DNA of 64,000 nt, taken from contig JAQOTA010000048.1 of assembly GCA_029532415.1 (NCBI GenBank), positions 856,001-920,000 on the forward strand. Direction: 5' to 3'. Source of the stretch: Marasmius tenuissimus (lineage: Eukaryota > Basidiomycota > Agaricomycetes > Agaricales > Marasmiaceae). The notes under the pieces are model-generated. The model was not told where the DNA came from. It searched no databases and saw nothing but the letters and a program-made list of their open reading frames with translations. Shown piece by piece: positions 31,317-56,084 of the stretch. Made by a program: the position numbers and the translations under genes. Each line of letters starts with the position of its first letter. Position 1 is the stretch's first letter.

Positions 31317-32275
31317 CTAAGGAGAACTATTAGTATTCGTCGACTCCAGCTTCCTCCTTTGATCAGCAGCTTTTTTTGCCTCGCTGAGAGGTTTCCCCCA
31401 TCTTGCAGGTGGAGCGTCCCAGATCCCAAGTTCCTTTTTGAGGTCCTCTGTTTTCTGCTCCCACCGGTTTTCCCAGTACACAGTAATCAGACAACGTGCA
31501 CTACTGCCACACCTGAGCGCCCATGGAACATACTCGCCGAACAGACGCTGCTTCTTCACAGCACTGAGGCGGAGAGGTCCGAATAACGCTGATAGGCCGG
31601 CCAGCGGAAGGCCCAGGTTAACGAATTCAAAGTACTTGACGGCCAGTTCCGACTCGACGTTTACCGGGAAGTTCGTTATGCAGTGGTACAGATCATGGCA
31701 TTCTCGATACCGCTGCATGACATACGCAAGTTCAGGATCGTCGATGTAATGAACCTTCCAGGAGATTATTGACTTGTCGAGTGATGGTGGCAGAGCGAAT
31801 ATGTTTGCTTACAGGTTCGCGTGTATCGGGGGTGACTCCAGTTCTTTCGAGCCAGGTTATGTACGAACGACCAAACGTTCCGTCAGGTAGTCGGGCAAGG
31901 GCTTCCATGTCGACAGTGCTTGTATTGATTCGTGGTCTCTCTTTCAGTATCTGTCTTCCTTCTGGACTCTTGAGCATAATGTCGCGTAAACGAGGCAGAG
32001 CAGGCCCAGCGGTGGTCTCTCCCAATGCGGCGACCATATCTAATCAAGATTCAGCAAAAGTGCGATGGTGAAAGAACAGCAGACGCACCTCCTCGTTTGG
32101 GATCCATCAACGCCATAACTGCAGACCCTGCCGCTAAAAATGCATTCTCGAACCAATTCAAAGGTACGTGACCAGGATATGCTGGTTTAGTGATTGAACG
32201 GCGAAAGTTCAATGAGGGAGAGATTGCGGAGTAGCTTTGCCTGCTGACTGTCGCTCGGATTAGGGAAGTCGCCAT
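31317..32275 (-). CDS. coq4: Ubiquinone biosynthesis protein COQ4
   Basis: Mitochondrial inner-membrane (matrix side) COQ4, which organises the coenzyme Q synthome and is implicated in C1 decarboxylation/hydroxylation of the ring. The presequence is MATSLIRATVSRQSYSAISP. Conserved blocks are YPGHVPLNWFENAFLAAGSA, MDPKRG|DMVAALGETTAGPALP, LPDGTFGRSYITWLE, the metal-binding HDLYH within YRECHDLYHCITNFP, and AVKYFEFVNLGLPL. Three exons; the end SSP lies at 31317. Full length for the family. Confidence 0.95.
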
Positions 32276-34409: not shown

Positions 34410-35558
34410 TTACGCGTCATCGCGCACCGGGATCATATGCTTGTTCAACGCCTCCTCTCGACATGCCCTTCCGCAGAAGTAGTCGTTCCCGCTTTGGGGT
34501 AGATCCAGGCACATAATACATGGCTCAACTAGGCCTGACGATACTGCTTCTCTATTGACGTAGTCCGATGAAGTTTCAAGTCAGAAACACGGTCAACATT
34601 ATAATGAAGAAGGGACTTGGCACGTACTGACGGTGACTCATAGAGCAATATTCACTCGTGTTCTGTCCGCTGGGATCAACGTGTACGAACTTCCCGCAGT
34701 CCGGGATTCGGCATAAGGCGTCCTGTTGTTGGATTTGGATCGAAGCGTGAGGCATGCTGGGCATGCTGATCGATGAGATTCCTCCGTTGCCTGCTGCGGG
34801 GGCCAGGTGTACGGTTGGAGGGATGGACCTGCTGGTACTGGGAAGAGGACTCCCGCCGGCGGGAATGTTCATGGAAGTCTGGTGATGGACGGGAGCCTGG
34901 GAGGAAGATGGCTGAGCCACAGGTCCTTGTTGATGCTGGTAGAGGGGCTGTAGATGGGCCTGGGTTTGGTTGATGAAGGATTGAAGCTGGGGTATTTGCT
35001 GGATAACGAGCTCTATAGGGATGACGCGATTTGGAGTCAGTCAGCTTCTTCCAGGACGGTGACATTTCGTCAACTCACTCGCAACTTGCATAGGGTCGAT
35101 TGCCCCGTTCTGCTGGTTACCCTTCTTCGACCCCCCAGGATTGGAAGGCTTTGCGTTCGGCGTATGAGGCTTGGCCGCAGGCTGAGCGTTTCCTGATCCA
35201 CCAGACTGGGCGGCGAGCGAGGCGCACGTCTTCCCGCAGAAGTCAAAGTTTTGAAACTTCGGTTTCTTCTGACAATGCTGTAGCCGGCGTGAGCCCAAGT
35301 TTACTAAGCTGGGGACGAGGAATTCTCGGTATCACTCACGTTGCAAAGGCTGGTCGAGCTTGTCGCTTGCGAGGCGCATTTCTTGGAGCAATAGTTGTGG
35401 TTCGAGAACCTTGGCTTCTGGTGGCAATACTGGGACGATATGAGCGAGGGACAGCCGTCATGAGAATAAGAGGTGCTCACATCGCAGAGGGTGCTGATAC
35501 CGGATTGTTGTTGGGTCTGAGGAACAGCTGCAAGAGGTGCTCGAGTCGCGGCAGCCAT
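34410..35558 (-). CDS. Zinc-finger-only protein of the ADP-ribose locus
   Basis: Contains four Cys-rich fingers of the kind found in its neighbours and no catalytic domain. They are LCD|YCHQKPRFSNHNYCSKKCAS, LCN|HCQKKPKFQNFDFCGKTCAS, CRIPDCGKF...EYCSMSH and PCIMCLDLPQ...YFCGRACRE, where '|' marks phase-0 introns. Between fingers 2 and 3 lies a Gln/Pro/Ser-rich linker. The finger order (KPKF type, KPKF type, long spacer type, C-x2-C type) equals that of the ZnF-PARP-like gene at 42530-44362, so it looks like that protein without its transferase domain. It ends MIPVRDDA. A possible targeting or adaptor subunit (inference). Confidence 0.75.
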
Positions 35559-35808
35559 AGCTTGGTCAGTACTATCGGATTGGTTGAACCAGAGTCGGAG
35601 AATCGAAGGGCTTAAATAAGATCATCTGCTATTTGAATGCAAACGTGTCTGCTCATGTCTTGCCCTGCCGGGGGCAACGAGGCAACACGATGAAATCTCA
35701 TTCCTCGAGCAATCGTGGAGATCGCATGTCGGAGTTGGTCATAGGTCTAATGTACACATACCACACGAGGAGTCCAGGTGCAGTTCGGCGGACTTGCAGC
35801 GCCACAGG

Positions 35809-36848
35809 CTAATAGCCTCGCAACAAACTTCGCAGCCTTTCCAGCGCCTTCCCGAGCTCGTTATGGCCACGACCGTCCGCACCAATACCCCAAAACCAGT
35901 CTTTGTCAGAATCCTGATAGATGCGCATGTCAGTCAGGAGTCGTGTTGCACACAGGGAGACGATACCTCGACAAGTTCCGCGTTTCCGGTAGAGAGGAGC
36001 TCCGTTCTGAGGTCAACATGTTGTGTAAACTTGAGGTAGAGCGCGAGCTCCATCTGGATAACACGTTTGCAGGCAGCTCGCTTAGAAATGCAAGGGAACT
36101 GACCTTCTGGACCTTGACCTGATTCCAATCATGCCTCACGTCGCCCTGCAACCTTCTTGCTTCCGCAAAAACGTCACGGGGGTATTGTGAGCATGTTCTG
36201 ATGTGATGCACAAGACTTGGATTATGTTCAAACTGAAACGAGTGGTCAGAGCTTCAAAAGAGGTGTTGAATCTCAGAGAGGTCCACCTTGAAGGACTGGA
36301 ATAGGTGCTCGCTTGTCGGGTACAATTCTCCATTGTAGGCGACCGGATGAGGCGAAAAGTTGGTGAATCCATAATAAGGATCTTGTTTATGATAGAAGTA
36401 GATTACTGGGCGGCCGGTACTAGATGTAGTGGGGCGTGTATGGGTTTGAGGATTGACTGCTCGCGCGCAGGTACGACTGCAATAAGGGTGGCGAAATCCA
36501 TTTTCCATGAACTTGGGCCGTTTCCCACACGTCTGTGCCAGAATCAGGGTGAGATCTTTGAGAGGCACTGGGAAATATGCTGGCTGCTGGGGCCCACCTC
36601 GCACAAGTCTAAATGACCTGTCAGATCGCCATAGACCGTATTCCTAGTAGCGCTCCGTTTCCCATAAGCGACTCTTGCACAGCTGCGACTGCAAAATGGA
36701 TGCCGTTGTCCGTTTTCGATGAATGCCCTATTACCGCAAACCTATCTCAATTTGTGAGTTTCTGAGTCAGAGATAGTGATACGGCTCTCACCTTGCATAG
36801 ATGGTCGGACGACGGGGTTGAGAAGGGACGGGTGATCTTGTTGAGCAT
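35809..36848 (-). CDS. Zinc finger-NADAR fusion protein (NADAR-1)
   Basis: Two N-terminal fingers, LCK|VCGNRAFIENGQRHPFCSR and LCE|TCGKRPKFMENGFRHPYCSR, each begun by a phase-0 intron between the first Cys-x and x-Cys. The NADAR domain (DUF1768/YbiA) follows: FYHKQDPYYGFTNFSPHPV, YPTSEHLFQSFK|FEHNP, DVRHDWNQVKVQK|MELALYLKFTQH, LLSTGNAELVE|DSDKDWFWGIGADGRG, NELGKALERLR. NADAR proteins hydrolyse N-glycosidic bonds of ADP-ribose-like substrates, and characterised members remove ADP-ribose from guanine bases. The conserved Glu of SEHLFQ and the WGIGADGRG loop are intact. Ends at TAG 35809. About 250 aa. Neighbours encode PARP-like transferases with the same fingers. Confidence 0.88.
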
Positions 36849-37104
36849 TTCTAGTACAGGTGAGGTGGGTGTCAGAGTGAAAGAGAAGAAGAACATCAGC
36901 TGGCATCGCCCTATGCCGCCGGCTATGTATACATAATGCTTCACCCATCCACGGACCACAGTTCGAAGACGTAGTTCGATGATATGAAGGTACACCACCT
37001 CGATCACGACACGATAGCCCGGCATTTCTTCCTCGTTTCTTGAAATCTCTTCTTCCCACAGATAGTCGCGATCGCATAGATTTAAACCTATAGATTGTAC
37101 ACGT

Positions 37105-37270
37105 GCGGGCGTACAAAGAACCTGCACTGTAACGTCCTAGTGACCAAGGAAACGTGCCCGCGAGAGGCTCCCGAATCATTTCGGCCACGCCGATAACATC
37201 CAATTTTCCAAGACGCTTCTGACTTGCCAGAGTCCTGGATCGGCTCTGGTCAGAAATACGGCAGCCCCGA
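37105..37270 (-). pseudogene. Relic of a third NADAR gene (C-terminal end and 3' flank)
   Basis: On the minus strand GACTCTGG-CAAG, GGCGTGGCCG and GGGCACGTTTCC...CACTAG align with the last exon of NADAR-2 (GACTCTGACAAG, GGGCGTGGTCG, GGGCACGTTTCC...CACTAG). The 3' flank (TGTACAATCTATA versus TGTACGATCTATA) also matches. The upstream catalytic part is missing. Confidence 0.6.
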
Positions 37271-37399
37271 TAGGCAGGATGATAATCAGAAACACTCAAC
37301 AAGCTCCGTACTGCCCGACTGAATGCTGCCGTTGTAGGATACGAGATCGATTGAGAACAAGATCCTGGTTCTATAGCGCAACACGACGATAATGAACCA

Positions 37400-38010
37400 A
37401 GTTACTCTCGAGGATGCAATCATCCTCTCCCTGGGGTCGTTCCGAACCATGCCCCGTCAAGTCGGAGAAGCTTGCTTGATGATCTGGGAAACTTGCCTGA
37501 GAACCGTAAAAATTGTCGATCCGTCGGTAGCAAGTACCCATCGGAGTCAAGGAACTGCGCTCGTTTCTCCCATCACGACCACCATGGTTCCAGGAGCTTC
37601 TCAAGAACAAGGACCATCTTGCAGAAAATCAAAACATAGCCGTCCGAGTCGCCCGGGTAACCCATAGGGAAGAGCGGAGCTCTCCGGAGAATGATATGTG
37701 GAAGAGAGTCACTCAAGCCCAGATATCGGTCTCTTGGATTGGACGGGTGCGTCTCCCAACATTCCAGGTCGAAAGACTGCAAGTGGAATAGCCAGTTCTC
37801 GTGGCAAAAGGATGGACAGCATACGCGCCTTGCCAAAGTCTGCAATCTTGACGTATGGCCCACGAGAGTGTTTGAAGTAGAGTCCAAGGAGCTTCTTGCA
37901 CCTTACCAGCCCAGGGAAATTTACTTCGGGTGATAGGCAGAATTCTACCAAGGCCGTGGTCCATGGACCTATCACCTGGTCAGAGCAACTGTCTGGGTCC
38001 CGTGATAACG
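37400..38010 (-). pseudogene. Degenerate protein-kinase fragment
   Basis: Minus strand reads SRGPYVKIADFGKARML (the DFG segment) and, about 120 bp further, ETDIWA followed by TGA where kinases continue with LGVTL. Frame changes separate the pieces, and no catalytic-loop HRD or glycine loop is seen. Read as a dead Ser/Thr-kinase remnant lying between the NADAR relic and NADAR-2. Confidence 0.45.
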
Positions 38011-38187
38011 CGGCCGCGTCGCGCAAGTCGCGACACGCAGAATGCTTCTGAGAATGACCTTTCGACGAGGCTCTGAGGGAGATCAGGATATGTATGAAGA
38101 GTCCTAAGAGCAACGCCCGCATTGGTATTATAGATCGTACACATGTTGTCGACGTGAAATAACCCAGAAATAACTTATGTCGGAATC

Positions 38188-39332
38188 CTAGTGGCCACGG
38201 AAACGTGCCCGCAGCCATTCGAGAGCCTTTCCCAACTCGTTGCGACCACGCCCATCGGCACCAATCCCCCAGAATGCGTCCTTGTCAGAGTCCTGAGTGG
38301 TGTTCAGTCGTGATATGCCAGAAAACGACTGAGAGTCTTACCTCGATGAGTTCAGCATTCCCAGTGGAGAGTAACTCATGTTTCAGGTCGGAGTGTTGGG
38401 TGAACTTGAGTTCAACTGCGATTCTCATCTAGGGAAGGGTCAATAAAGTTACTTCACCTTGTCTTTGGGAAGTCTACCTTTTCGATGTTGACATCGAGCC
38501 AATCGGACCTCACCTCGTTCTGGAGGCGACGCGCTTCGGAAAAAGCGTCGCTAGGTCGTTCGGAGAAGGTCCTTATATGTTCGACAAGTGCCGGCTTGTG
38601 CTCGAACTGGAACTACGTCAAAATAATGCAGTGGGAACAGAGGTAAGAATCTCACCTTGAATGATTGGAAAAGGTGCTCGCTTGTAGGGAATCTCTTTCC
38701 GTTGTAGAAGACCGGATGCGAGGAGAAATTTGTGAAGCCATAGTGGGGATTGTGTTTATGATAAAAAGGACTTTGGGACGTGTGGATTTGACGGTAGGGG
38801 TATTCGGGGGCGTCTGTCCAGGATTGACTACAGGTTTCGTGGCGTGAGGTCTACGGCTCTGATACCGACTGGGGGGAGACGAAGGTGTCTCTTGTAACGA
38901 CGGCATCTCTTGTATCGAGCGAGGTCGAGGCGGTGGTGAGGTCGGTAGGCTCTGAGGTGACGCCTGCATTTCATTCTGGGATTTACTTCGCTGGAAAGGT
39001 GATTCGCTGTTTCCGTCCGCCGCAGACAATTCCGGCAACTTGAGCGCGTTAGCGATGTCCTCATGCTCCCATTGCGAAGCTGGTATGTCGGATGTGACAT
39101 AGTAAGTTCGGCGCTCCTCGACAAGCTGTACTCGCGGCCGTCGGCCCCTGGGTGATAAGGGAGTCAATGCATCTGAAGAGCATGGGGGATTCGAGGGCGT
39201 TGTAGTGATTGTAATGGCCGTGTGATAACTCATTCTGGATGGGAGATAGTATTGAGCCTTGAGAGAGCCCGTTGAACGGTGTCTTATAGCATACGCTTCA
39301 TCGCCATACACAGACTGGCTTGATCGATGCAA
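38188..39332 (-). CDS. NADAR-domain protein with disordered N-terminus (NADAR-2)
   Basis: The first about 150 residues are Ser/Pro-rich with basic patches. A short intron of 38 nt (GTATCAG...CTGTAG) then joins PSR to QSWTDAPEYPYRQIH and the NADAR domain: SPFYHKHNPHYGFTNFSSHP, FPTSEHLFQSFK|FQFEHKPA, RSDWLDVNIEK|MRIAVELKFTQH, HELLSTGNAELIE|DSDKDAFWGIGADGRG, NELGKALEWLRARFRGH. Catalytic-loop residues are the same as in NADAR-1. Without the small intron the frame is lost, so it is required. A later in-frame ATG (39233) is an alternative start. It has no zinc fingers. It is divergent from the PARP-like gene at 39777. Confidence 0.85.
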
Positions 39333-39776
39333 CGAGGCAGACGTGAGGCATCATGGGCGTCAGAGGAGGAAGTGTGTGACGGTATGTGACGATATGTGAC
39401 TGTAACGGAGAGTAACAGTCGTAACGGCTGGGCGTAACGCTTTCTCGAACCTCCATAACCGCCGAACCCTGGCTCACCTTTGCGCTCTTGTAATATCGAC
39501 AGGACAAATTCAAGCGTAAAAACTCACGCTGAGCGCCTTATCTGACCCGATGGGGGACCTCAATAATGAGTCAGAGGATGCACTACGCGATCGAGGGTCC
39601 TGTGCTGAACAGGACATTTACCACGCGTTTTACATGAAATGAATCTATGGCTACGGATAGATGGGGATGTCCGCCTTGCTTATGGTGTCTGTTTGAGCTA
39701 AGGTGTGTAATTATTCTTCTCTCTTATTATCTCCTCTTCACCAATCTTCCAGGGCAAAGACATAGACGCTCCTTCA
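39333..39776. promoter_or_regulatory. Shared divergent intergenic region NADAR-2 / PARP-like
   Basis: 444 bp separates the NADAR-2 start (-) from the PARP-like start (+), so eraser and writer candidates face away from a common control region. It contains closely spaced repeats of a GTGACGGTATGTGACGATAT-like phrase near 39373-39403. Confidence 0.6.
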
Positions 39777-40860
39777 ATGGCTCAAGATTCCAGAAAGTGT
39801 AATGGGAACAAATCTATACGGCTGGTTTCGTTGAAGACCTCAAACGCCAAGTACCAGGAGTGTAGGTATCTTGTTGCGGATAGTACAGGATGGTCAACTG
39901 AACTGTTTCTCCAATCAAAGTACGGGCGCTCTTTCTACAAGGCTGGAAACACCCCCACAAGAACAGGCCTGCGATACGAGGCATCTATCTGATCGTCTAC
40001 CCGTCAGAGAAACTCGAACCATACCGCAAGTACAGGTTCGTCTGACTTTTGGGGTCTCAACGAACCCCATGGCATTGATTCCATCTGTTTGTAGATCACG
40101 TATCCAGCAGCGCACACTCCGTTCTGGGTTCGACAAGGGCTCCAATGAGCAACTTCTATTCCATGGAACGACGCGCCTTTGCGCGCTTGGAGACAGTGAT
40201 AGAAGCGTTGTACCTTGCTCACTCCCGAGCTGTTCTCTGTGCTCCATAATTTCCAAGTTGTACGATATCCGGAAATGCGGTGAGTAGTCTAGCCTTACAG
40301 ACGTTTTTTTTCTTACATTCAAACAGGGTCGAAGCACAAATTCCGCAGGTGACTTTGCATGGTCCTTCATTTCGCTACCAAGGTCTGAAACACTGTTCTG
40401 TAGATTTGGAACTGGTATATATACAACGACCTGCTCTTCCAGTACGTTGACCAGTCTTCCAAGAGTTCGCTCACCTGATCGTCCCCGTGTAGAGGCGGAT
40501 GATTACTTCGATGCTGGCGGAAAGGATTCCCAGTGCCGAGTCGCACTCGTCAACCGTGTCGTCGTTGGGAAGCCATGCATTCGACATTATAACGCAACCA
40601 ATCTAGTCGAACCGCCGCCTGGTCATAACTCTGTACGTCCTTCCTCTAGTGAAGATGAGTCAGGTTGTACTCACCGCCGTCGTTGCTAGGTCGTCGGCGT
40701 GCCAGGTGCAGACCTCAACTATGAGGAAACTGTTGTTTACGACAGCAACGCTCTCCACCCCGCCTTCTTGATTGCATATTCCGATTCAAACGAAGCTCAT
40801 CGTCAGTCCAAAGCTGCAGCACTCCTTTCTACTTTATTCAAGACCCCGGTGGCATCTTAA
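39777..40860 (+). CDS. PARP-like ADP-ribosyltransferase, intact H-Y-E (PARP-like 1)
   Basis: Spliced product: MAQDSRKCNGNKSIRLVSLK, YQE|LRALFLQGWKHPHKNRPAIR, YRKYR|SRIQQRTL, then the transferase fold. The NAD-binding strand is NEQLLFHGTTRLCALGD (catalytic His), with Cys-rich PCSLPSCSLCSII. Next is FRRFGTGIYTTTCSS (Tyr), ALVNRVVVGKP and DLNYEETVVYDSNALHP (Glu). It ends TPVAS at TAA 40858. Eight exons or so with phase-consistent joins. The HGT...GIY...YEE set matches the PARP catalytic triad. It lacks the zinc fingers of its siblings. A Cys pair pattern C-x4-C-x2-C is shared by all three PARP-like genes here. Substrate unknown. Confidence 0.82.
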
Positions 40861-41088
40861 GAACGCTCAAGGACGAACTATCGACTTATTTATACGTATT
40901 TATTGTCGGCATACGACTCGACGGTTCGCACAAGACTTCCCGAATCTTCAGCACATTGCATATGTACTACATATCCGAAACCTGATACTTCATTTCCACG
41001 CCTTCAATAAAGAGAACGAGCAAGCAACCATCAAGAATAATTTACTGGGCGATACAAGTACAATGTGGCGCACACACCCGACTCTCTT

Positions 41089-42232
41089 CTACTTGAAGAA
41101 CATGATCACATACACTGGAATGATTCCGTCGGCATCAGCTACGAAAATCGGAGCGTTTTCGGGGACCTGAAGAAGGTCAGAGTCGCGTTTCACCTCCGGG
41201 GATCACTGTGAACATACCTCGCGCTTTCGGTCAGCGATGGCAGTGCACGCTACCGAAATGCGGTATGGAGAGGTTGTTACGGTGTAGGTGAACTTATCCG
41301 AAGACGAAGGATCTCTATAGGAGTAAATTCCCTTGCCATGCCTTCTCCAGTCAGCTCGGGGTTCGCCAATTCGACATGATCCTTACCTTCCCATATGGTA
41401 CGGAGCTCCGAAACCGAGGCATCCAAACGAAGACCTAATTGCGTTGCAGATCCCGCATGTCTTATCCTTGCACGTCGTCGCCGCGTTCACTCCCAGATCA
41501 CAAACACACATCGAGGAGAAATAGGTTCGTGTCTCGCCGGGATGGGCGATCGATTTACTAAACCATCCCTTGTTAGTTCGAGAACTTCATAAAAGGAATG
41601 TTCCAATTCTTACCTGAACTTCTTCTGCCTGGCCTTTGCCTGGCGAGGGACGGGGATTTCGTAGATCTTCTCGACCATTGGAACAGGGTCTCCCTTTGAT
41701 TTCCACGCACTCCGGAATTCATCCCGAACTAGTTTCCGTTCGTGAATGAAGGAGTGATCGTCGAGTCGTACTGTTGCTCACCTTGTTTGAAGGTCGTGTC
41801 ATTCGAGTTCAACTCTTTGAGTGGCACAGCCGGGTGAATATCTGTGTCGCGTATGCACTCGATGCAAAATACCGACTGGTATTGCGGGTATACCTTGCAT
41901 CCCTCGCACGCTGGGACATTTCCCTTGCGCACCGCCTCTTTCGCGTGCTCCTTCGAGCAGTAATAGGAGGAGTCACGTTTCCCAGTATTCTGACAGCCAT
42001 CCAGAATACAAGCCATCGGCTGCTCCCCACTGCCGTTGCGAGCGCACGATCGACTACAGTATGGGTGTTGGTACCCATTTTCTGTGAATTTCGGTTTCGA
42101 GTGACAATTCTATTCATTGGTCAGCATAACTCGCATGGTGGTCATGGAATTTCGGCTCACCTCGCATAAATTGTTCTGAGGGAGGGGTCGGTGACGTTGT
42201 ACCCAGTTCATATTCTTCAGTAGCGCGGCCAT
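41089..42232 (-). CDS. Zinc finger PARP-like protein lacking catalytic H and E (PARP-like 2)
   Basis: MAALLKNMNWVQRHRPLPQN leads to finger LCE|NCHSKPKFTENGYQHPYCS, a second CILDGCQNTGK...YYCSKEH and a third CEGCKVYPQYQSVFC. After VRDEFRSAWKSKGDPVPMVE the transferase region reads TRTYFSSMCVCDLGVN, CKDKTCGICNAIRSSF, RHGKGIYSYRDPSSSDKF and IFVADADGIIPVYVIMFFK. Compared with its two siblings, the His of HGT is Phe (YFSS) and the Glu of Y(D/E)E is Pro, while the Tyr in GKGIY remains. It is therefore probably a pseudo-transferase, though coding capacity and all splice sites are intact. It shares a 297-bp divergent promoter with PARP-like 3. Confidence 0.8.
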
Positions 42233-42529
42233 GGTGGGGAAGGGGAAGTAAGGAGAGGGAACGAGGGCTAGAATTCGAGCGAGGCTCAAATGAGCGTGCT
42301 AAATCTCCACATCAGCACGCCAACATGTGTCCACAGCCCATAACATCCACGCCGCATCCTCGTTTTCGACTCACCGCTTTCGGTCAGTTCTCGGCGGGGA
42401 CGTATGCATGCTTTCGTTGCCCATATTATAAGCATGAGCACCTCCGATACCTCTTCATTCCTCACGTACACTTATCACCGCCTGGTCTTTTCAAAGCGTC
42501 ATTGTTAACTCCCGGAGAGTCTGAACATC
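42233..42529. promoter_or_regulatory. Shared divergent promoter of PARP-like 2 and 3
   Basis: 297 bp between two opposite starts. Contains ATATTATAAGC near 42422. Compact spacing suggests co-regulation. Confidence 0.55.
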
Positions 42530-44362
42530 ATGAGCGGAGTCGCTGCCCACATACCCCTCGCTTTATCCCTTCTCCAGACCGTGGCCTCCCAATATCCTGG
42601 TCTACAGAAAGCTCAACCCACAACCACCGTAGCGCCCGGAGCGTCTGCTGGTTCTACTTTATTGGCTACGGCACTGTCCACTCTCCCTGCCTTTCAATCA
42701 CAGGGGCCTTCTCAGTCCCAGCCCCAACCATCGCAAAACATGTCCTCTTCGTCCATACCGGCGACTCCTCCCGCAACCTCGACATCGAATCTTTGTGATG
42801 TAAGTTTACCTGTCTTGGTATCGATCTTTCACCGATGCCGAAACCGTTTGTAGAGCTGTCATCTCAAGCCTAAGTACAACGACGGCCGGAAGACCCATCC
42901 TTACTGCTCGAAGAGCTGTGCGAAGGCGAAGGCAGGGGGAAGTCCCTCCGGTGGTACTTGTGATGTAAGTGTCCGTCTGGAATCTCAGCCGACATTCACA
43001 TGCTCATGATCTCCAACAGTTCTGTCATTCTCGACCCAAGTATGCTGGCCATCCCTATTGTAGCAAATCATGCGCCCAGAAGGCATCCGTTGCTCAAGGT
43101 GCGTCCAGGAACCCACCAGGTAAAGTCTTCCATTTTATCGCCTAAACGAGTATTCATCGTGTCTCTGTAGGAACCTGTCAAGCTCCAGCATGTCAGAAAT
43201 CTGTCTACAACAACGGAAACGGGGCTCCCGGCGATTACTGTTCCTTATCCCACAAGACGTGAGTACATTCATATTCTATGAAACCGTTAGCACCTACGCC
43301 TCGTGTTCATCGCCTGTTTTCTAGACTCGTCGAGAGCCTCTGCTTGCTTTGCCTCCAGCAGCCCAAGCAGACGCATTCTCACTTCTGCAGCAAGAAATGT
43401 GAAGACGACGCGGAGAAGCGAGGGCCGATGATATTAGAAGTCCCCGTGGGACACACGACTTTCAAGAGTGGTATGTCGTCGCTGTTGTTATCTCGCCCTC
43501 GCCGGCGTATTCATTGGGAAATTACTTCCACAGTTGCTGATCAATTTAAGTCTTCCTGGCGACATGCAGGGACCTCGTGTCCGCCGGTCAAGCGTGTATA
43601 CAAGATTATTGCTACTCAGGCATCCCTCTCGGCTTACGATTCATACAAGTAAGAGATGATTCATTTAGCTTCAGCGGCACTGAACGGCTGACCACGGGGT
43701 TTCAGGGCAACAGTCGAAACTCGGGGTCAATTCGCTGCGGCTGGCCGTTCCGAGGGAAATGAGAACCGCCGGTGGCATGGTACGAAAAGAGAATGTCAGT
43801 TAGGGGACAAGGGTCAGACCCAGTTCTGTGCGACAACAACGTGTTCGCTGTGCTGCATTATCCGAACATCGTACGATATCAGTCTATGGGGAAAGAAGAC
43901 GGGGTGGGGACGGTTAGTCGCTTCTGATTGTCGGGGCCTTTGCATTTCTTTGACATTCGTTCCCTTCGACATAGATTCGGCAAGGGTATCTATACCTCAT
44001 CGACCTCATCGAAGTAAGTTGGCACTGGCCACTCTTCCGGAGATGTTTTCATTCTCAATCGCGATCATGACAGGTCGAACGATTACTCTCACAACGCTTG
44101 CAAATCGAATATGAAGGCTATTTTGTTGAACAAGGTCGTGGTTGGCAAGGGATGTAAGATGACACACGATAGCACATCCCTTACCTCTCCGCCAGCAGGA
44201 TATGACTCGGTACGTGACTTGGAACTCGATCATCACAGCGAGTCTAACGGGAATTACTCTTAGGTGCTCGCGGAGAAGGGCGGAAGCTTGAACTACGACG
44301 AGCTGGTCGTATACACGAACGACGCTATCAGACCGTCGTACCTCGTAATGTATGAACCTTAA
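42530..44362 (+). CDS. Four-finger PARP-like ADP-ribosyltransferase, intact H-Y-E (PARP-like 3)
   Basis: The N-terminus is Ser/Gln/Pro-rich. Fingers follow: LCD|SCHLKPKYNDGRKTHPYCSK, TCD|FCHSRPKYAGHPYCSKSC, TCQAPACQKSV...DYCSLSH and LCLLCLQQPKQTHSHFCSKKC. A conserved linker (VADQFKSSWRHAGTSCPPVK) leads to the catalytic part: NRRWHGTKRECQLGDKGQ (His), CATTTCSLCCIIRTSYD, GRFGKGIYTSSTSSKSNDYS (Tyr), ILLNKVVVGKG and LNYDELVVYTNDAIRPSYLV (Glu), ending VMYEP. About ten exons, with each finger start at a phase-0 intron. Probable mono- or poly-ADP-ribosyltransferase; the fingers may bind nucleic acid or protein (inference). Confidence 0.87.
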
Positions 44363-45572: not shown

Positions 45573-47090
45573 GGGGTCTGATGAACAGGCGAGTGCTTGA
45601 CAGTCGAATCCGGAGTGGTCCTATATAGTATATGAAGTAGCGTAGTAAGACGGCACATCAGCCACCTGAAATCCTCGTGGCTGAGGACTATTGAAACATG
45701 CCAGTCCAACGATGCAGCTCCAGTCCAGAGGGGTATGAAATCGCCTTGAATAACGTTCGGGTAGCTCTAGTCCGGGGAGGGATCGGTCGCTCACGTTAGA
45801 GTTCTTCGCGCGCTTTAGTTAGCAAGGGAATCTACTATTGAGAAGGGCTCGGAATCCGGGTTGAACTTGGGCAATTCGACATGGCGTAGGGCCCACCGAG
45901 AACGTGGTATGTCATACGATTGAAATGAGACGGCTCAAGCGGGGGCTGAATGTGGTTTATGCACTTGCGCACAGGCAGCGGCGGAAAGACACACGGTATC
46001 TCTCACGATCAGAGAGGACCGCGTAAAAGTTTCCGAATGGTGTGTAGAGCGTGGGGATGGTGTGAGAGAAACGAGGTGTACGAATTGACCACAGGGGCAA
46101 CGTGCAGTCACGGAGAGTTCGAAGAGCGTGCGACCCCAGTAAAGAGACCACTGTGACTTCGCATACGTTCAGTAATCGAGGGCGACAGCGGGCACTTACA
46201 CGACTAGCCGCTCCATATGGCCGGGGTTGAGGATAATGGTGCCGGACACATGGAGACAAAGCCTACAACCATAATGGTGACATTCCCACCCTGCCCTGTG
46301 AAAGCTGAGGAGGAGGAAACTCCGATATTCAGGAGAAAGGACAGACTGATAGAGATCCTACTACGAATTCGGCACGACCACCCTGGAGGAGATATCCCGG
46401 GAAGGGGGTCTACTGTCTCGTCATCTATGCTCTACAATATAGTGTCGCGGCACAGGAGTGCTGAGCTGAAAGGAGCCGTGGCCAGGGACGCAATCGGGGC
46501 TCGCGTGGTCCCCAATCAAAGCAAGGTGGTAATATTCCTGGCCTGTAGCGCCTTCGACACCCACTAAAGGTGATACACCAAATCTTCGCGTTGATGAGGC
46601 TGAACGAGCGTGCTGCCAGGTGGAGATGTTGCTTCAACGGGGTGAATTTTCTTTGAGTCAAATTCAGGGCTACAATTTAGATTCGTGAGTGCGATCAGTT
46701 AAGATAGATGGGACTCGAGGATTGATCTCACAGTTGTTTCTCGGATCTTGGTGTGCTATTGGTCATGGTGGCTGAGAAAGTAAAGATATAAGTGTACCTA
46801 CGTCCAACTGAGGATACCACTGGTCGTGGGATGTCTAAAGTGCGTGCAACGAACTTCAAGTCACGAACTGAAGACAGGGGGCGACCGAAGCATGGCTTGA
46901 AGGTAAAATTGAGGTATGGACGTGTCTTGCTAGTCGTGAGCCACCCGATTGAAAGGATAAATATGGTGAGAATACTAGGCTGTTGAATCTTAAGTTGGTT
47001 ACAATATGAATAGCAAAAGGTTAAGGTAGGGGTGTCGATATATGACAGAGAACCTAGTCACTCGAAAGAAATCACCACCAGTCTCCAAAG
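45573..47090. other. Intergenic, no gene recognised
   Basis: A 116-codon plus-strand frame (46217-46567) and a 100-codon minus-strand frame (45957-46259) overlap in part. Neither has family features. The right end is the 3' side of the first DUF7918 array gene. Confidence 0.4.
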
Positions 47091-48248
47091 CTAATTCTCC
47101 AAGGTGAGGTCGATTGTCTCCCCAACGATAGGTTCTCGCTTGATCTTCTTTCGCGGCCGTTCTCCGTCTCGCTTAGCCCGAATAGCGTCTATCTCCCGCT
47201 GAGGCGTTGTTCAGCACTCGAAATGGAAGATGAACCATGTCGAATCACCTGAAGATCCTTGAGCCGTTCAGCGTCTTCGTCATCCTGGTCTGAGTGGTCT
47301 ATAATTTCACCGTCAGAATCGAGTTCCATCTTGTACCGTTTGCGAGTGGTGCGCCTGGGGACAGGGCGGGGCGGTGAAGGAGATGTTCGTTGGGTGGCTA
47401 GTGGTGGTGGGGCGATGTCCTCTGCTTGAAGGATTCCTGCCAGTTTTTCAGTTCAGGCTCTTGAGTGGAGCAAGTACGAAAATGGAGCCCACCTAGCGGC
47501 CTATACTTGAAGTTGAATACGGCAACAGGAGGGCCTATCCTTTCAACTTCTGTGAAGAACATTGCGTGGGTTGCCACGGAACGTTCGAAACTTCATCTGT
47601 TCAGTTGCAAAGTCCGGAAAGTTGTAGGTTATACGCACCTCGTTTGATGACTGATTCCTTTCTTGGTTTTCTCGTGAAAGATTCTCATTTCCGGAGCTTT
47701 GTTCTGAGACTCCAGTCCTTTGGAGATAACACGGACTTGGAATATTTGAAGCTTGATCAAACCTATGTCTGGAGCAGGCGGTGCCGAAAGCAGGGCGTAG
47801 TCATCTTTGAACATGGTTCAAGATTAGGGATACCATTTCAGCATAGAATAAGCCAGGTACCTGATGTTGCTATATTGGAGAAGGTGTAGGGAACCTTCGT
47901 AGTGGACGTTGTGTACAAAGCGTCTGTAAAAGCCTCGTGCGGTATTGTCTGGTCGTCGCGATCCATCACAGATCCACCACCATGGTGACCATCGATGGTT
48001 ACATATCTAGCTGTTGGGAGTCGGTATTTCTGGTCGGTCCAATGAACTGCATACGTCTGCGAGTACAAATGAACACTCGATGCTGTTCTGGGAGCTCAAG
48101 CCTCGGGCCTCATGATACGCACTTTGCCTACCTCTGACGCGATCCAACAAGTAGCGGTCAGACTCCCTTCATCGACCTGAATATCATATTCCTCCAGATT
48201 CCTCCCCTCTATGCGAACTGAGGCAGAAAAATTGCCTATTCTGGGCAT
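47091..48248 (-). CDS. DUF7918 array gene 1 (subfamily a)
   Basis: MPRIGNFSASVRIEGRNLEE, TCWIASEVGK|TYAVHW, VTIDGHHGGG, TTKVPYTFSNIATS, DDYALLSAPPAPDIGLIKLQ, FHEKTKKGISHQT, AVFNFKYRPLGILQAEDIAP, basic KRYKMELDSDGE, then RPRKKIKREPIVGETIDLTL and the end EN. Contains IKRE (SUMO-acceptor consensus) and ETIDLTLE (SUMO-interaction-like). Splice sites are consistent with gene 3, its closest relative; the join around 47.55-47.65 kb is less certain. Upstream sequence is shared with gene 3, not with the b subfamily. Confidence 0.7.
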
Positions 48249-48655
48249 GGGTGCGTTGCAAGGTCAAAGTAGAAGGACACCACCAGTCAACAAAGTGATT
48301 TGAAACACTGTTGAGTATGATCATGAGTTCGCCAGAGGCTCTCGTATTTACGGTAAGTGTCACTTACAAGACCGTCGAGCGTGCTCAAAGTCGATTCACG
48401 AATTACTGAGCGGCCTGTAGTCAAGGGAGATCGTGGTCAAGAGCAAGAACAGTTAGGCGCTCGGACACCAGTCCTGGGAATCATGTGCCTCACGTACCGC
48501 ATCTGAGGCTCTGAGCAACGTTTCCACTTCATAGACAACCTTTCGTTAGAATACACGTAGAAAAGTGAATGATGATACGGTATACAGGGATATTAGTCGC
48601 GAGTAATGTAGTTCTTAGATCGATAAACTGTAATCGAGTGGCTCAACATCTGGCA

Positions 48656-49828
48656 CTAGTCCTCTGTCAAGTCGATCGTCAACCCGACAATGGGTTCCCT
48701 CTTGATCTTCTTGCGTGAGTGATCACCTTTCTTTTTCTGCTTTCGGAGAGCTTCCAGTTGCCGCTGAGCAGGAATTGAGGACAACTACTCAGTAACATTC
48801 TGATAGTGATGAATCCGCGACTGACCTCAAGATCCGCAATTTTTTTTGCGTTATCATCGTTGTCGTCTTCTTCGTCATCGGATTCAACGATCGGTTCTCC
48901 GTCCGAATCAAGCTCTACTTTGCATCAAGTTCTCTTCTGAGGAACTCTTGATGGGATGTCGCGCTGGGGAGAGGGTGATGCGGGCTGAGGAGGGGGCGGA
49001 GCGATGTCCTGTGCCTGGAGGATCCCTGTAAAACAATGATCGGTCAGATAGACGTGGCTGAACGGGAGTGCGGATACCTAAAGGCCTGTATCTGAACTGA
49101 AAGGTCGCCACTGGTGGGCCCAGTGGTTCAGTTACGACTTTCGTCCTCTTCCTGACGATGATGTCTGGTTGGTCATAGCTGGACGTTCGTATTCAGACCT
49201 TTTGGCACTCAGCAAGAACTTGCTGAATGCACCGTACCTAGTCTGGTGATTGATCATTTTCTTGGTTTTCTCGTGGTACGTTTTGGCAGCAGGGACGGGT
49301 GGAGCCCTTCCAAGCAAGTCCGTCTTCAAGAACCCGAACATTCTGAAGCTTTATCTGGATCATCCCTATATCCGGAGTCGCTGGATCGCAGAGAAGACTA
49401 TCTTCGTCTATAATTCGTTTAGGTTTTGTTGTGAAGAATAGAGGTACAAGAACACACCAGAAACCTTCACATTTGAAAAAGTGAACGGCTTGCAACTCGT
49501 TTCAGCCACATATATACCCTCTTGACACACCGTTCGTCGCAGTTTATCCAATAAAAATCCGCCGCATTATGGCCATCTACCTGAACCCAGCCCACGGCCG
49601 GCGAAAGGAACGTGTCACGGCACCAGTGTAATTTGTATGGCTGGCCAATAGTCAGGTCTTCCGTATTGCTCGAAGTGAAGAGTTGACGCGATTTCGGCAT
49701 ACCTTCCCAACCTCCGATGCGATCCAACAGGTGACCGTCTTGGTTGCTTCGTCGATTTGGGCGTCGTATTCCACGAGAGGTTGATCGTTTACGGTGACCC
49801 AAGCCGAAAATCTATCGTATTGCAGCAT
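48656..49828 (-). pseudogene. DUF7918 array gene 2 (subfamily b), frameshifted
   Basis: Start MLQYDRFSAWVTVNDQPLVE and TCWIASEVGK are intact. In exon 2 the frame is lost at GHNAADFYW (T-run near 49550): the expected EGIYVAETSCKPFTFSNVKV continues one frame over. A second lesion, one extra base in LAWKGS(T)P near 49300, puts VPAAKTYHEKTKKMINHQT in another frame. The C-terminal RKKIKREPIVGLTIDLTED is still perfect. Two independent frameshifts argue for a pseudogene rather than one sequencing error. Confidence 0.7.
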
Positions 49829-49989
49829 TATATTGCTTTCCTGCGAGTGCGTGGAGACTCTTCAAACAAACGAGTACACAGAAGGCAGGTCAAACGACAG
49901 GGGATCAGGGCGATTGACAACATGTAAGGCTACACTGCAGCACGCGCCGAGGTATCGAGGACAGTTCCGAGCCTCAACTCTCTTCAGGC

Positions 49990-50165
49990 AGTAAGAACTT
50001 ATGCGGTGTCAAAGAAAGCAAGAAATCGCGAGAGTGGCACTGGTAGTAGTGGAGGAGAGCGCGGTAGTCACGCGCCAAGGGATATCCGGTCGAAGTTCCC
50101 GTGGTCACCTGCCAATTGTATATGACCCTGACGCGACGCGCGTCGCGACTCGTGGGTGGTTCTCT
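49990..50165. promoter_or_regulatory. Array promoter module (upstream of gene 2)
   Basis: Conserved block shared by all b-subfamily units: TGTCAAAGAAAGCAAGA, a GAGCGCGG-TAGTCACGC stretch, GAAGTTCCCGTGGTCACCTG, then CGACGCGCGTC. Core GGTCACCTGCCAA at 50103-50115. Equivalent blocks lie upstream of genes 4, 5, 6 and (diverged) 7. Confidence 0.6.
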
Positions 50166-50668
50166 TCCTCTCTCCTCGGTCTTGGTATCTTTTCTCCTGT
50201 GTGGTCTGAGGTGAGTTGCTATGATATATTATCTAGGGGTATCGTTCTCTGGTAGTATATTTTTGGTAAAGGATAGGTACAGCAAGCCATACCTGTGCGA
50301 TGATTGTGTTCAAGAAAGGTCGTCGAGTGAGCTAAACGCGCAAGATTAGGGAGGATCGAGGTTAAGGACAGGAATAGATAGATAGGCGCCCATGCCCCAG
50401 GCTCAGGAGAACGTGCTTCGTGTCCCGCGATCTGAATAAAGCTGATCAAGAGGTAGACCTGTGAAAGGCCCGTTATGAGCAAGCGTTGAACATGGTAAAA
50501 AATTGCAGCTGAAGTGCGAACGTGTCCGGTCAGTTGTGGACGATGGGAATACTAATATATTGAATCTTAGCCTTTACAATACGACTAGCAGAGGTTAAAT
50601 TAAGTGCATAGAGATATAAAGAGGAATCCAAACATCCAAAGGAAAACCATTACCACCACTCCCTAGAG
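50166..50668. other. Spacer between array units
   Basis: Its first part (TATGATATATTATC and TCAAGAAAGGTCGTCGAGTG) is the intergenic sequence found between genes 4-5, 5-6 and 6-7. The remainder (50340-50640) is not shared and carries an open minus-strand frame with hydrophobic residues that I could not identify. Confidence 0.5.
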
Positions 50669-51787
50669 TCAATCGTCCAACGTGAGGTCAATCGTCTCCC
50701 CGACGATAGGCTCTCGCTTGATCTTCTTCCGTGGTCGTTCACCGCCTCTCTGGCTCTGCTTCGCTCGAATGGAATCCTTTTCCCGCTGAAACGTTGGTCA
50801 GTGTTTGAGCCAGAGAGATAAGCGATGACAGTTACCTGCAGTTCCTCGAGTCGTTCACCGTCAGATTCGAGTTCAATCTTGTATCGTTTCCGACTGGTGC
50901 GCTGTGGAGTAGTGCGAGGTGGGGATGATGATGTTCGCAGGGTAGGCGGGGGACGTGGAGCAATGTCTTGTGCTTGGAGGATACCTAACATTCGAGCAAA
51001 TAAGGTTTTCGCAGAAAGAAAGGAATGGACACCAGGAAACATACCAAGCGGCCTGTACCGAAAATGGAATGTAGCAACAGGAGGACCCAGTTTATCGCTC
51101 AGTATGGCCCGGACTTCTGGTACCGGTACTGAATGTTCAAAACTTGCGACGAAAGGTGAATATGAGAGACCTGTTAATTATCACCCGTAAGTACCTTGTT
51201 TGATGGCTAATTCCTTTCTTTGTTTTCTCGTGGAATGTTCTAGTATCGGGAGTCTTGATGCTGGTGTACTCTTCTCTCCCCCAAACATAGACGTTGTGCA
51301 TTGTAAGCTTGATCAAACCCACATCGGGCGTAGCTGGTGCGGAGAGAAGAGCCTGCTCATCTAAGAACATTGTCAAACACATGGGATTACTATCAAGTTC
51401 AGCTGAATACCTGAAGTTGTTATATTTGCGAAAGTGAAAGGAACTTTTGTCGTGGAGGTTGTATACAAGCCGTCGTTAGTTGTTACGACTCGCAGGTTGC
51501 CTATAGGTATACGCTCTGTGATGAGTCCCCCACATTGACGTCCATCGATTTCTACATCCGCGCTCGTGGAAAACGGGGATCTGTGGTTGGTAGAAATGAC
51601 TGCATAATCCTGGGTGACTGCCTCAGCCTTTCGCGAGCACAAACCCGAGCACGAAACACACCTTGCCTGCCTCTGATGCGACCCAACAAGTAGTAGTTCG
51701 ATTCGCCTCGTCAAACTGAACATCATATTCCTCCAAATCGTTCCTGTCTACTCGAATAGAAGCAGAGAAATCACCTATTCTAGGCAT
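50669..51787 (-). CDS. DUF7918 array gene 3 (subfamily a)
   Basis: Intact. MPRIGDFSASIRVDRNDLEE, TCWVASEAGK|DYAVIS, VEIDGRQCGG, TTKVPFTFANITTS|DEQALLS, PDVGLIKLTMHNV, FHEKTKKGISHQT|SFEHSV, ATFHFRYRPLG|ILQAQDIAPRPP, KRYKIELESDGE, RPRKKIKREPIVGETIDLTL, end DD. All joins keep frame. It shares its N-terminus and 5' flank with gene 1; the gene 1+2 pair and the gene 3+4 pair look like a duplicated two-gene unit. Confidence 0.78.
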
Positions 51788-52901
51788 GGATGCATTGCAG
51801 AGTCAAAGCACAAAGGCACAACGTCGACACGAGCCAGTGGCATGGCAAGGATATTCAAAAGCTGTTGATTATCAGATCTTCAATGATTCTCGCAGTATTC
51901 ACAGTATGTAGCACTTACAAGTCTGTTGCCCGCGTTTATGTTCGATTCACTAGCTCGGGTCAGCAAACGAGGGAGATGTCCGAGATGGTGGTCAAAAGAC
52001 AACAATAGATACGCGCTCGGCCCGGTTTGGCGCCTACACCTGATTTTGAGCAACTTCAGTCTACCGTTGCAGCCTGGATGTGTACGGCCCAGCAGATTCT
52101 GATGTAGTATACAGGACTTGGTGAGTCAGCCGGCTCCGCTGGCAGGTCCGAATTCGCAAGTTCAAGTTGAGCAAACAAGGGTCAAGACTCAAACCTGATG
52201 CTCACTAAATTGAATTAGTTCAGGACAACTCACAAGAAGGTCATATTTGTTGGTGACAGGACTGGGGACAGAATCCAACAATGTGTGGCTGGCCAAGTCA
52301 TGTAGTAGCTTTATTGGTAGACACGAGAGGGATGGAGGGGAACATGTGGTAGCATTCCTAGTCAAGTCGGACGGCCATAGAAGAGTGTGGTCACTATTTT
52401 AATGGTGCCATCTTTTCTGGGCTGCTCGTCGCCCGGCCTTCGGCCGGCTCCTCGCAGCCCACTAGCCAACAGTAATCACAATGGACTTGGTGAAATATGA
52501 TCATTGTAGCAACAAAGACCAAAAGGTGTGAGTTGTGTTAGGTGGGGCGAATGGGATGGTTTTGGGAGAAAGGAATGGGTGAACGGGTTGGTAACTTTGA
52601 GTTAGGGCGCAGGGCTTTGAGGGCGTGTGAAAAGGTGACCAAATCGGATACAGCTTCTGGCTCTGTCCTGAAGCTTGTCCAAAAAGGGGAGGAAGCCTTG
52701 ACGCGTGAGAGAATCACACTAAATTAGGAAGGAGACGCCGAAAAGGGCGGCACTTCGGACTATATCCGGTAGAAAACTCTCACATCTTAAGCTTTGGTGA
52801 AAAATTGTTTCCAGGACGGAAAAAGCCTAATTCTCGTTCCTCGAATTCGGAATCATCAATTGCGAATAAAATAGTCCTTAGATGAGGTATAAACTGTATT
52901 A
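51788..52901. other. Spacer with hairpin, no gene
   Basis: The first about 230 bp match the region upstream of gene 1 (48249-48480), e.g. TTACAAG(A/T)C and TTCGATTCAC. The rest is unique to this spacer and includes a strong GC hairpin (52419-52460). A 61-codon frame at 52542-52727 has no support. Confidence 0.5.
52419..52460. repeat. GC-rich hairpin (nested inverted repeat)
   Basis: GGGCTGC (52419-52425) pairs with GCAGCCC (52454-52460), and inside, CCGGCC (52433-52438) pairs with GGCCGG (52442-52447) around a TTC loop. Not followed by a T run. Confidence 0.75.
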
Positions 52902-54082
52902 CTAATCCTTCGTCAAATCAATCGTCAGACCGACAATTGGTTCTCTCTTGATCTTCTTGCGTGAGTTCCCTTTGTTCTTCGGTTGACGAAGAGCTTCCAA
53001 TTGTCGCTGAGAAGATCTTAAGGACAATTATGCCTTTCCCTTGGATAAAGATCGGTGACTGACCTCTAGATCTGCAATCCTCTTTGCATTATTGTGATCC
53101 TCCTCGTCCTCATCATCAGATCCAGCGATTGGTTCTCCGTCCGAGTCAAGCTCCACTTTGCATCGCGTCCTCTTCTGAGGGACTCTCGGTGGGCTGTCGT
53201 GCGGGGGAGAGGGTGATGCGGGTTGAGGAGGTGGACATGGAGCAATGTCTTGTGCTTGGAGGATTGCTGGAGAGCAATGACCACGGTCAGATAGAAGCGG
53301 TTGAGCGAGGTTAATATCCTGAGGTACCTAAAGGCCTGTATCTGAATTGGAAAATCGCTACTGGGGGGCCTATGGGTTCAGTTCTCATCAACGTTCTTGT
53401 AGGGATATTTATTTCTGGTTGGTTGAAACTAAAAAAAAAACACGTCTTCATATGAGTTGTTCACGGTGAGTACAATCATACCTAGTCTGGTGAGTGATCA
53501 TCTTCTTGGTTTTCTCGTGAAACGTTCTATCAGCGGGAGTAGTTTGTCCGGGCCAAGGAAGTCCGCTCCCAAGGATCCGAACATTTGAGACCGTTGTCTG
53601 TATCAGTCCCATATTTGGATCTGAGGGAGCAGAGAGAAAAGCAGTTTCGTCTAGGTGAAAGTTCAGAAGTAGCAAGGATCAACAGAGCACAATAACGCAC
53701 CGGTTGTCTTCACCTTCGAGAAAGTGAATGGTCTGCAAGTTGTAGCAGTCTCATATATGCCCTCTTTGCAGCTAGTTTGGGAAGCTTTCTCGTCCTGTTT
53801 CACAAGTCCCCCGCACTCATGGCCGTCTACCTGAACCAAGCCCCTGGTTGGCGAACAGTACTCGTCGTCACGCCACCATACTCTGTATGGCTGTCAAAAA
53901 TAGTCAGATCTGCCATTTCACTTGATAAATGAGGAATTGAAGCCTTTCTGACGTACCTTCCCCTCCTCCGAAGCAATCCAGCAGGTAACCGTATTGGTTT
54001 CCTCTTCAACTTGGACATCGTATTCTTTGAGAGACTTATCGTCCACGGTAATCCAAGCAGAAAATTTGTTGTGCTGAAGCAT
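52902..54082 (-). CDS. DUF7918 array gene 4 (subfamily b)
   Basis: Intact. MLQHNKFSAWITVDDKSLKE, TCWIASEEGK|PYRVWWRDDEY, VQVDGHECGGL, EGIYETATTCRPFTFSKVKTT|DETAFLSA, NMGLIQTTVSNV, FHEKTKKMITHQT, R|TLMRTEPIGPPVAIFQFRYR, AILQAQDIAPCPP, KRTRCKVELDSDGE, acidic SDDEDEEDHNNAK, RKKIKREPIVGLTIDLT and the end KD. An acceptor at CCTACAAG (near 53395) is needed to hold frame. The same late acceptor type is needed in genes 6 and 7, which supports the model. Confidence 0.75.
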
Positions 54083-54239
54083 GATAATGCTGTCCTGCAA
54101 GTAGATGACCAATTTCCAATCGAGTACACAAAAGGTGTTTGTCTGGTCAAGTTGGTAAAACTGTGGTCAGGAAGGTCATCGACACGTATATTTACACTAT
54201 AACGCGCGCCTAAGATTTTGAGATTCCGCAACAAAGACT

Positions 54240-56043: not shown

Positions 56044-56084
56044 TGATATGGCGTTTCTTGAAGAAATTTTGCAGTGTCGAAGAG

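Follow-up and report, generated by a model that had tools for sequence, protein, structure and literature searches.

We examined a 64,000-nucleotide stretch of the Marasmius tenuissimus genome (hereafter the window; C44:856001-920000, on a contig of 996,880 bases in a genome of 71,056,785 bases and 70 contigs) that brings together candidate writers and candidate erasers of ADP-ribose. Exon models were built by hand from open frames and GT..AG borders. Together with Pfam searches they define a cluster of ∼10 kb that holds two YbiA-type NADAR genes, the relic of a NADAR exon, three genes related to PARPs (PARP1-PARP3) and a finger-only gene termed FING (Table 1). The original prediction had placed six genes and a relic here, and the exon models, Pfam and a self-comparison of the region bear this out. 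NADAR-B and PARP1 form a head-to-head pair with starts 543 bp apart, and PARP2 and PARP3 form another with starts 297 bp apart. Because the genome elsewhere holds just one PARP locus above the cut-off (on contig C23) and two NADAR loci (on C7 and C19), the co-occurrence of the two families in the cluster exceeds chance. Within each family, tandem duplication accounts for the clustering. A PARP match on C19 (E 0.355, below the cut-off) was taken as chance; the frames there include a kinase.

Table 1. Features of the cluster and its neighbour, in window positions
Feature	Position	Strand	Description
COQ4	31340..32275	-	ubiquinone biosynthesis; unrelated neighbour used as linkage control, outside the proposed system
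FING	34410..35558	-	finger-only protein, 297 aa; exon model with GT..AG introns
FING exons	35481-35558, 35340-35429, 35079-35277, 34628-35012, 34410-34551	-
NADAR-A	35809..36848	-	two fingers and YbiA-type NADAR, 255 aa, 6 exons
NADAR relic	37135..37237 (limits of match)	-	3' exon piece, ∼100 nt
NADAR-B	38188..39233	-	conserved N-terminal stretch and YbiA-type NADAR; halves disagree in frame
PARP1	39777..40860	+	small PARP-family protein, 251 aa, fingerless, H-Y-E present
PARP2	41089..42232	-	finger and degenerate PARP relative, 295 aa; H and E not conserved
PARP3	42530..44362	+	fingers and PARP catalytic domain, 436 aa, 10 exons
Finger-core span	35374..43075	.	six genome-wide core matches with CxxC half: FING 1, NADAR-A 2, PARP2 1, PARP3 2

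Catalytic residues of the NADAR and PARP proteins

The profile of the NADAR domain (PF08719), which is said to have been named by de Souza and Aravind in 2012, confirms both NADAR genes of the original prediction, with NADAR-A matching at 2.4e-36 (125.9 bits) and NADAR-B at 8.1e-34 (117.7 bits) against a cut-off of 35.1 bits. NADAR-A is identical (100%) over its full length to the deposited M. tenuissimus protein PM082_022604 (P0121). In the hand-built model, finger 2 and the first part of the NADAR domain fall in exon 36287-36532. Since the two share one exon, the fusion of finger and NADAR is not an annotation artefact here. The predicted structure of NADAR-A has a mean predicted local distance difference test score (pLDDT) of 86.9, and its best fold matches are Escherichia coli YbiA (2b3w, 4.1e-11) and the P. 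nicotianae NADAR (8bau, 4.5e-7).

Removal of ADP-ribose from guanine by NADARs depends on E43, K50 and E125 in P. nicotianae numbering (PMC11543638; papers are cited by accession for the portions of their text that were accessible). The published numbering was mapped onto chain 8bau_A with a two-residue offset, after which 11/11 published positions checked match. E, K and E occupy these columns in both NADAR-A and NADAR-B, and the three residues are kept in 119, 120 and 118, respectively, of the best 120 of 538 NADAR homologs. Both proteins also carry a Glu in the last strand, the mark of the YbiA type (PMC11125620). As for the other genomic NADARs, the one on C19 retains all three catalytic residues, and the one on C7 retains the K only, with A and Y in the other two columns, so it may be a non-catalytic NADAR. 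The C7 locus (L040, ∼4702846-4704950) is a proline-rich open frame of 701 residues that ends in the NADAR domain.

In the window, the N-terminal half of NADAR-B and its NADAR domain lie in different frames, and two intron readings could join them. P0147 from Marasmius sp. AFHP31, 97% identical over the domain, reads straight across the break, and P0143 (M. oreades) and P0145 are also continuous there. Because orthologs such as P0147 and P0143 read through, a frameshift, real or of assembly, is likelier than an intron, and intact copies are present in relatives. The orthologs share a conserved N-terminal stretch around EERRTYYVTSDIP.SQW, for which Pfam, searched with P0147 at E ≤ 0.1, gives nothing beyond the NADAR domain. 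Self-comparison of 33-46 kb shows the relic to be 69% identical to the 3' exon of NADAR-B (E 6.5e-6) and yields two matches between NADAR-A and NADAR-B at 77-78%. Judged by their residues, both NADARs look enzymatically competent, NADAR-B with a frame problem in this copy.

Of the three PARP-like genes in the original prediction, PARP1 and PARP3 hold up, with Pfam PARP (PF00644) matches of 3.9e-10 and 1e-13, respectively. PARP2 gives no Pfam PARP match at E ≤ 1 and is related to PARP3 by BLASTP (4.8e-27). In a 40-row alignment of the window's PARP3 with 39 of 120 listed homologs, the triad residues H301, Y352 and E417 are invariant in 40/40 rows. Equally invariant (40/40) are C307, C318, C323 and C326, arranged in the window's protein as CX10CX4CX2C between the H and Y motifs. 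These four cysteines would presumably bind zinc; the pLDDT of the predicted model is partly low near them. PARP1 retains H, Y, E and the four cysteines in alignment, and by their residues both PARP1 and PARP3 look enzymatically competent. The aligned model of PARP2 retains the Y and the four cysteines and, with neither H nor E conserved, PARP2 is likely a pseudo-enzyme.

A profile of the 40-row PARP3 family finds solved chains of PARP3, PARP4 and tankyrases (best 5.4e-10), and no DarT family is matched by PARP1 or PARP3 in Pfam at E ≤ 1. The predicted PARP3 model is of modest quality (mean pLDDT 67.5, predicted template modelling score 0.56, weak at 342-361) and matches tankyrases at a best E of 1.1e-6, with a template modelling score to target of ∼0.5 and a root-mean-square deviation of ∼8, which is a loose fold match. 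Canonical PARPs (PF00644; PARP3, PARP4 and tankyrases) have the same catalytic fold and H-Y-E triad as the cluster enzymes, but the window's PARP3 differs from them in its CX10CX4CX2C element and in N-terminal fingers of another type. Fungal PARPs have been assigned to clades 1 and 6 only (Citarelli et al. 2010, PMC2964712), and the accessible text of PMC2964712 and PMC4245714 does not describe a finger-PARP architecture. The NEURL4/LRRC9 ADP-ribosyltransferase (ART)-like families, compared by description only, were set aside as a home for the cluster PARPs, with no support in the accessible text of PMC7955679.

Annotated proteins P0004 (Gymnopilus dilepis) and P0005 (Psilocybe cyanescens) show a PARP1-like unit fused ahead of a PARP3-like protein, and thus the PARP1-PARP3 tandem arrangement exists outside Marasmius. 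P0041 (Thelephora terrestris) has two tandem PARP units in a single annotated protein, plus finger-like stretches. No PARP-NADAR fusion appears in the Pfam columns for the best 120 of 381 PARP homologs and the best 120 of 538 NADAR homologs, a weak negative given that the NADAR search extends to ∼446 aa.

A zinc finger common to PARP and NADAR proteins

Four of the cluster's genes share a finger with the motif C-x2-C-x(n)-H-x-[YF]-C-[SG]-x2-C. If it is a targeting module, as the original prediction proposed, it would be one of PARP3, PARP2, NADAR-A and FING; PARP1 and NADAR-B lack it. FING has two N-terminal fingers of this type by motif and two C-terminal finger-like stretches by eye, with no Pfam family above cut-off and no catalytic domain. 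The motif is found in 117 of the best 120 of 381 PARP homologs and in 16 of the best 120 of 538 NADAR homologs. Both lists were seeded by finger-bearing queries (PARP3 and NADAR-A), and hence are biased towards fingers.

Within this genome the finger is, as far as searched, confined to the cluster. PARP3, NADAR-A and PARP2 give finger matches on C44 only (E ≤ 1), and a DNA pattern for the H-x-[YF]-C...C-A core, which misses variant fingers, has 8 matches in 71 Mb (1 for the reversed control), 6 of them inside the finger-core span of Table 1. Matches on C7 and C36 lack the CxxC half and were taken as chance. Finger pieces show weak Pfam similarity to zf-FCS (23/33), YacG (21/33) and zf-HIT (8/33), and the Cys spacing of the corresponding MYM/FCS, YacG and HIT zinc fingers is similar to that of the cluster finger; the one piece tabulated with cut-offs falls below all of them.

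The distribution of the finger among NADARs was followed on a tree of 126 domains and 149 columns, a quick tree with long branches in which 13 of 122 inner branches are starred and 62 open. NADAR-A groups with Marasmius NADAR-B at 87% in the Shimodaira-Hasegawa-like approximate likelihood ratio test, which makes it by sequence a Marasmius-level local duplicate of NADAR-B; the other finger-bearing NADARs lie elsewhere on the tree. Finger state requires 9 changes at best, at least 3 of them forced by starred branches, compared with a shuffled mean of 16.2. A thinned tree of 71 rows was made by removing C7, C19, PnNADAR, YbiA and seven mostly long-branched rows without fingers, and by halving the remaining no-finger rows, a named core excepted. 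On this tree finger state needs 5 changes, and a single clade for the 17 finger rows (versus 54) is rejected by the approximately unbiased test (p-AU 0.00084). It is still rejected (15 versus 54, p-AU 0.0025) when the metagenome rows P0146 and P0173, whose fingers were uninspected, are left out. Finger-bearing NADARs, present as well in Mycena, Lyophyllum, Collybia, Stereum and Dentipellis, thus fail to group as a single clade, so the combination of finger and NADAR arose or was lost several times. This recurrence is the best evidence that PARP and NADAR take part in one process.

Linkage in mushrooms and the COQ4 control

Conservation of the arrangement was assessed with the same two homolog lists and, as a control, the best 120 of 1,399 homologs of the neighbouring COQ4 gene, whose identity follows from an identical homolog, P0241, that matches Pfam Coq4 at 3.2e-103. 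Rows giving both organism name and contig size were used for linkage, amounting to 102 PARP rows (86 species) and 86 NADAR rows (74 species), with 18 and 34 omitted. Location on the same contig was deduced from equal contig sizes, and gene order from locus tags. PARP and NADAR homologs lie on a contig of equal size in 31 of the 42 species listed in both, where ∼2.0 would be expected at random for an assumed 40-Mb genome. The linkage is therefore not unique to M. tenuissimus, and the non-random adjacency anticipated by the original prediction holds when measured against random placement. Among the 11 unlinked species, three draw on different assemblies by their tags (Agaricus bisporus, Ephemerocybe angulata and Lentinula raphanica), and Mycena sanguinolenta possibly does so too.

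Measured against COQ4, which lies ∼10 kb from PARP3 in the window, the same linkage loses its specificity. Among the listed homologs, PARP3 and NADAR-B types share a contig in 30/35 species, PARP and COQ4 in 23/33, and NADAR-B and COQ4 in 21/28; the first two proportions give a p of 0.147 in a Fisher test. In the 17 species for which all three genes are listed, PARP agrees with NADAR-B in 15 and with COQ4 in 15. The COQ4 contig is shorter than 30 kb in 5 of the 10 PARP-COQ4 misses, and therefore the control is if anything undercounted. COQ4 rows of species absent from the PARP and NADAR lists were mostly not typed, and a reading of the list leaves the counts unchanged. Judged by locus tags, Amanita inopinata has COQ4 in the middle, with PARP and NADAR on either side (6596, 6604, 6614), and in Psilocybe cyanescens (7268, 7271, 7291) the gene closer to NADAR is COQ4, not PARP. 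In Collybiopsis luxurians, PARP and NADAR are on one contig and the listed COQ4 is not on it.

Linkage of PARP and NADAR is thus genuine and of long standing, but as far as shown it belongs to a block rather than to the pair. We consequently rejected adjacency as proof of coupling, since COQ4 is about equally linked, and with it the use of linkage as specific evidence for a joint system. The cluster itself adds nothing for pairing beyond ordinary microsynteny. More generally, the control warns against reading functional coupling from gene adjacency alone in mushrooms.

A possible writer-eraser module and its alternatives

In DNA and RNA, guanine is the base that NADARs free of ADP-ribose (PMC11543638, PMC11125620, PMC11833690), and they are described as inactive on thymine adducts (PMC11543638, PMC11125620) and on phosphate ends (PMC11833690); one is also inactive on uracil adducts made by PARP10 (PMC13036486). 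The physiological roles of eukaryotic NADARs have been called unclear in PMC11125620, which nonetheless mentions a trans-splicing protein of nematodes that has NADAR domains. Our tentative reading, which we hold at somewhat short of an even chance, is that these genes make up a mushroom module for reversible ADP-ribosylation, addressed by the finger and with guanine as its most likely substrate. In the scheme that we infer, for activity, substrate, common target, scaffold roles and finger ligand alike, PARP3 and probably also PARP1 would transfer ADP-ribose from NAD+ to the target, and NADAR-A and NADAR-B-type proteins would take it off again. Through the shared finger, PARP3 as writer and NADAR-A as eraser would be brought to one nucleic-acid site or one protein partner, and PARP2 and FING might serve as non-catalytic scaffolds or competitors. 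The substrate would most likely be guanine, in DNA or RNA, since guanine-ADP-ribose is what the NADARs assayed in the papers cited hydrolyse. On this reading a guanine adduct put on by PARP3, PARP1 or both would be taken off by a NADAR, with the finger as the address.

Of the writer-eraser idea in the original prediction, the parts that rely on the shared finger, the NADAR residues and the H-Y-E triads of two PARPs are retained, and the argument from adjacency is given up. It is probable that writer and eraser have a target or partner in common, and a linked on/off system is plausible, with gene proximity alone being no proof of it. Other eraser families are matched elsewhere in the genome, namely macrodomains on C19 and C28, an ARH type on C10, and a microbial PARG on C3 plus a short match on C7. 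Given these, NADAR would not need to serve in generic removal of ADP-ribose from proteins. The ARH-type matches (PF03747) form another tandem eraser family, with four within 4 kb (C10:4755677-4759510) that seem to represent two complete genes plus a third split in two.

Several points weigh against such a module. Among the best 120 NADAR homologs, 104 are fingerless, including the broadly listed NADAR-B type. Gains of the finger are not separated from losses on a tree of the size and openness given above (149 columns, 62/122 inner branches open), and local exon exchange between neighbours may move a finger without joint function. The NADARs may instead act on riboflavin intermediates, as bacterial and plant NADARs do (PMC11543638, PMC11125620), or on soluble ADP-ribose derivatives, which are favoured as substrates of many phage NADARs and have been proposed for viral and RNA-repair NADARs (PMC9503650).

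It is possible, if on the unlikely side, that the locus is an inherited neighbourhood in which ancestral PARP and NADAR neighbours were kept in a block with COQ4, multiplied by tandem duplication and copied fingers from one another, with no joint function. The comparable linkage of COQ4 to both partners (23/33 and 21/28 against 30/35), the gene orders in Amanita inopinata and Psilocybe cyanescens, and the local origin of NADAR-A from NADAR-B are all consistent with this explanation. However, the finger is not common in this genome, and finger-bearing NADARs recur in the five other genera named above. Those of Collybia nuda, Mycena polygramma and Lyophyllum shimeji are on contigs other than that of the listed PARP, unlisted PARP copies being possible, so that copying between genes that are neighbours today would not readily account for every case.

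We consider it quite unlikely that NADAR-A and NADAR-B serve metabolism as N-glycosidases, breaking down reactive riboflavin intermediates or disposing of soluble ADP-ribose derivatives, with no connection to the PARPs. The activities on these compounds cited above would fit, as would the YbiA type of both proteins, and certain YbiA-like NADARs seem to lie near the flavin-related NADARs of fungi and plants (PMC11543638, PMC11125620). Nevertheless, a riboflavin enzyme has no obvious need of a finger shared with PARPs, and E. coli YbiA also hydrolyses guanosine-ADP-ribose in vitro, so that the activities are not exclusive (PMC11125620, PMC11833690).

The least probable alternative is that the PARPs mono-ADP-ribosylate proteins while the NADARs erase the nucleic-acid product of another enzyme, the finger marking a shared partner (chromatin or a ribonucleoprotein, for instance) and not a shared adduct. 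The closest solved relatives of the cluster PARPs by sequence and fold, PARP3, PARP4 and tankyrases, are known mainly as protein modifiers, which favours it. Against it, the inactivity of NADARs on thymine and phosphate-end adducts, and of one on uracil, leaves guanine among the non-protein adducts that the cited tests cover, and a base-modifying PARP-family enzyme does exist in human PARP10, which acts on uracil (PMC13036486).

The closest known pair is the bacterial YarT-YbiA, a myxobacterial toxin-antitoxin system (PMC11125620). It is closer than DarT1-NADAR because it joins an H-Y-[E/D/Q] ART to a YbiA-type NADAR, with linked genes as in the cluster, although the cluster ART is a PARP that was set beside YarT by description only. 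The guanine target of YarT-YbiA is itself inferred, and the system is a bacterial operon with a small toxin unrelated to DarT (PMC11125620), whereas the mushroom cluster is a multi-gene set of intron-bearing PARP-family enzymes with shared fingers, a linkage not specific to the pair and no toxicity known. In bacterial DarT1-NADAR (DarTG1), a transferase likewise adjoins a NADAR with conserved residues of guanine-ADP-ribose hydrolysis, but DarT belongs to another ART family and its NADARs are of the BC4488 type, with Asp in the last strand in place of the Glu of the cluster NADARs (PMC11543638). The eukaryotic guanosine transferases pierisins and CARP-1 are ARTC (cholera-toxin-like) enzymes and not PARPs, and no NADAR partner is mentioned for them in the accessible text (PMC11543638).

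In animals, PARP12, PARP13 and PARP7 have CCCH fingers and a WWE domain, and PARP13 is a catalytically dead paralogue, as PARP2 of the cluster likely is; we know of no NADAR partner for them. Their combination of a PARP domain with zinc fingers (PMC4245714) resembles that of the cluster. Neither a fungal PARP-NADAR pair nor this finger turned up in our literature search, which had most subscription journals outside its reach. The guanine writers that PMC11543638 names for eukaryotes lie outside the PARP family, and a PARP and a NADAR with a private finger in common would offer a specific and cheap test for reversible base ADP-ribosylation in fungi. A bolder version, which we regard as quite unlikely, would make the mushroom PARPs the first known PARP-family enzymes to ADP-ribosylate guanine in DNA or RNA, with dedicated NADAR erasers and a shared finger, repeatedly acquired by NADARs, that would send both to one place, as a eukaryotic counterpart of YarT-YbiA that possibly acts in nucleic-acid defence or conflict.

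Window positions 47000-60000 hold an array of diverged direct repeats, with up to five or six copies at a spacing of mostly 1.6-4.3 kb and pieces 60-92% identical. This array is probably a tandem gene family, and one of its frames has a weak match to DUF7918 (PF25534, E 0.03, below the cut-off).

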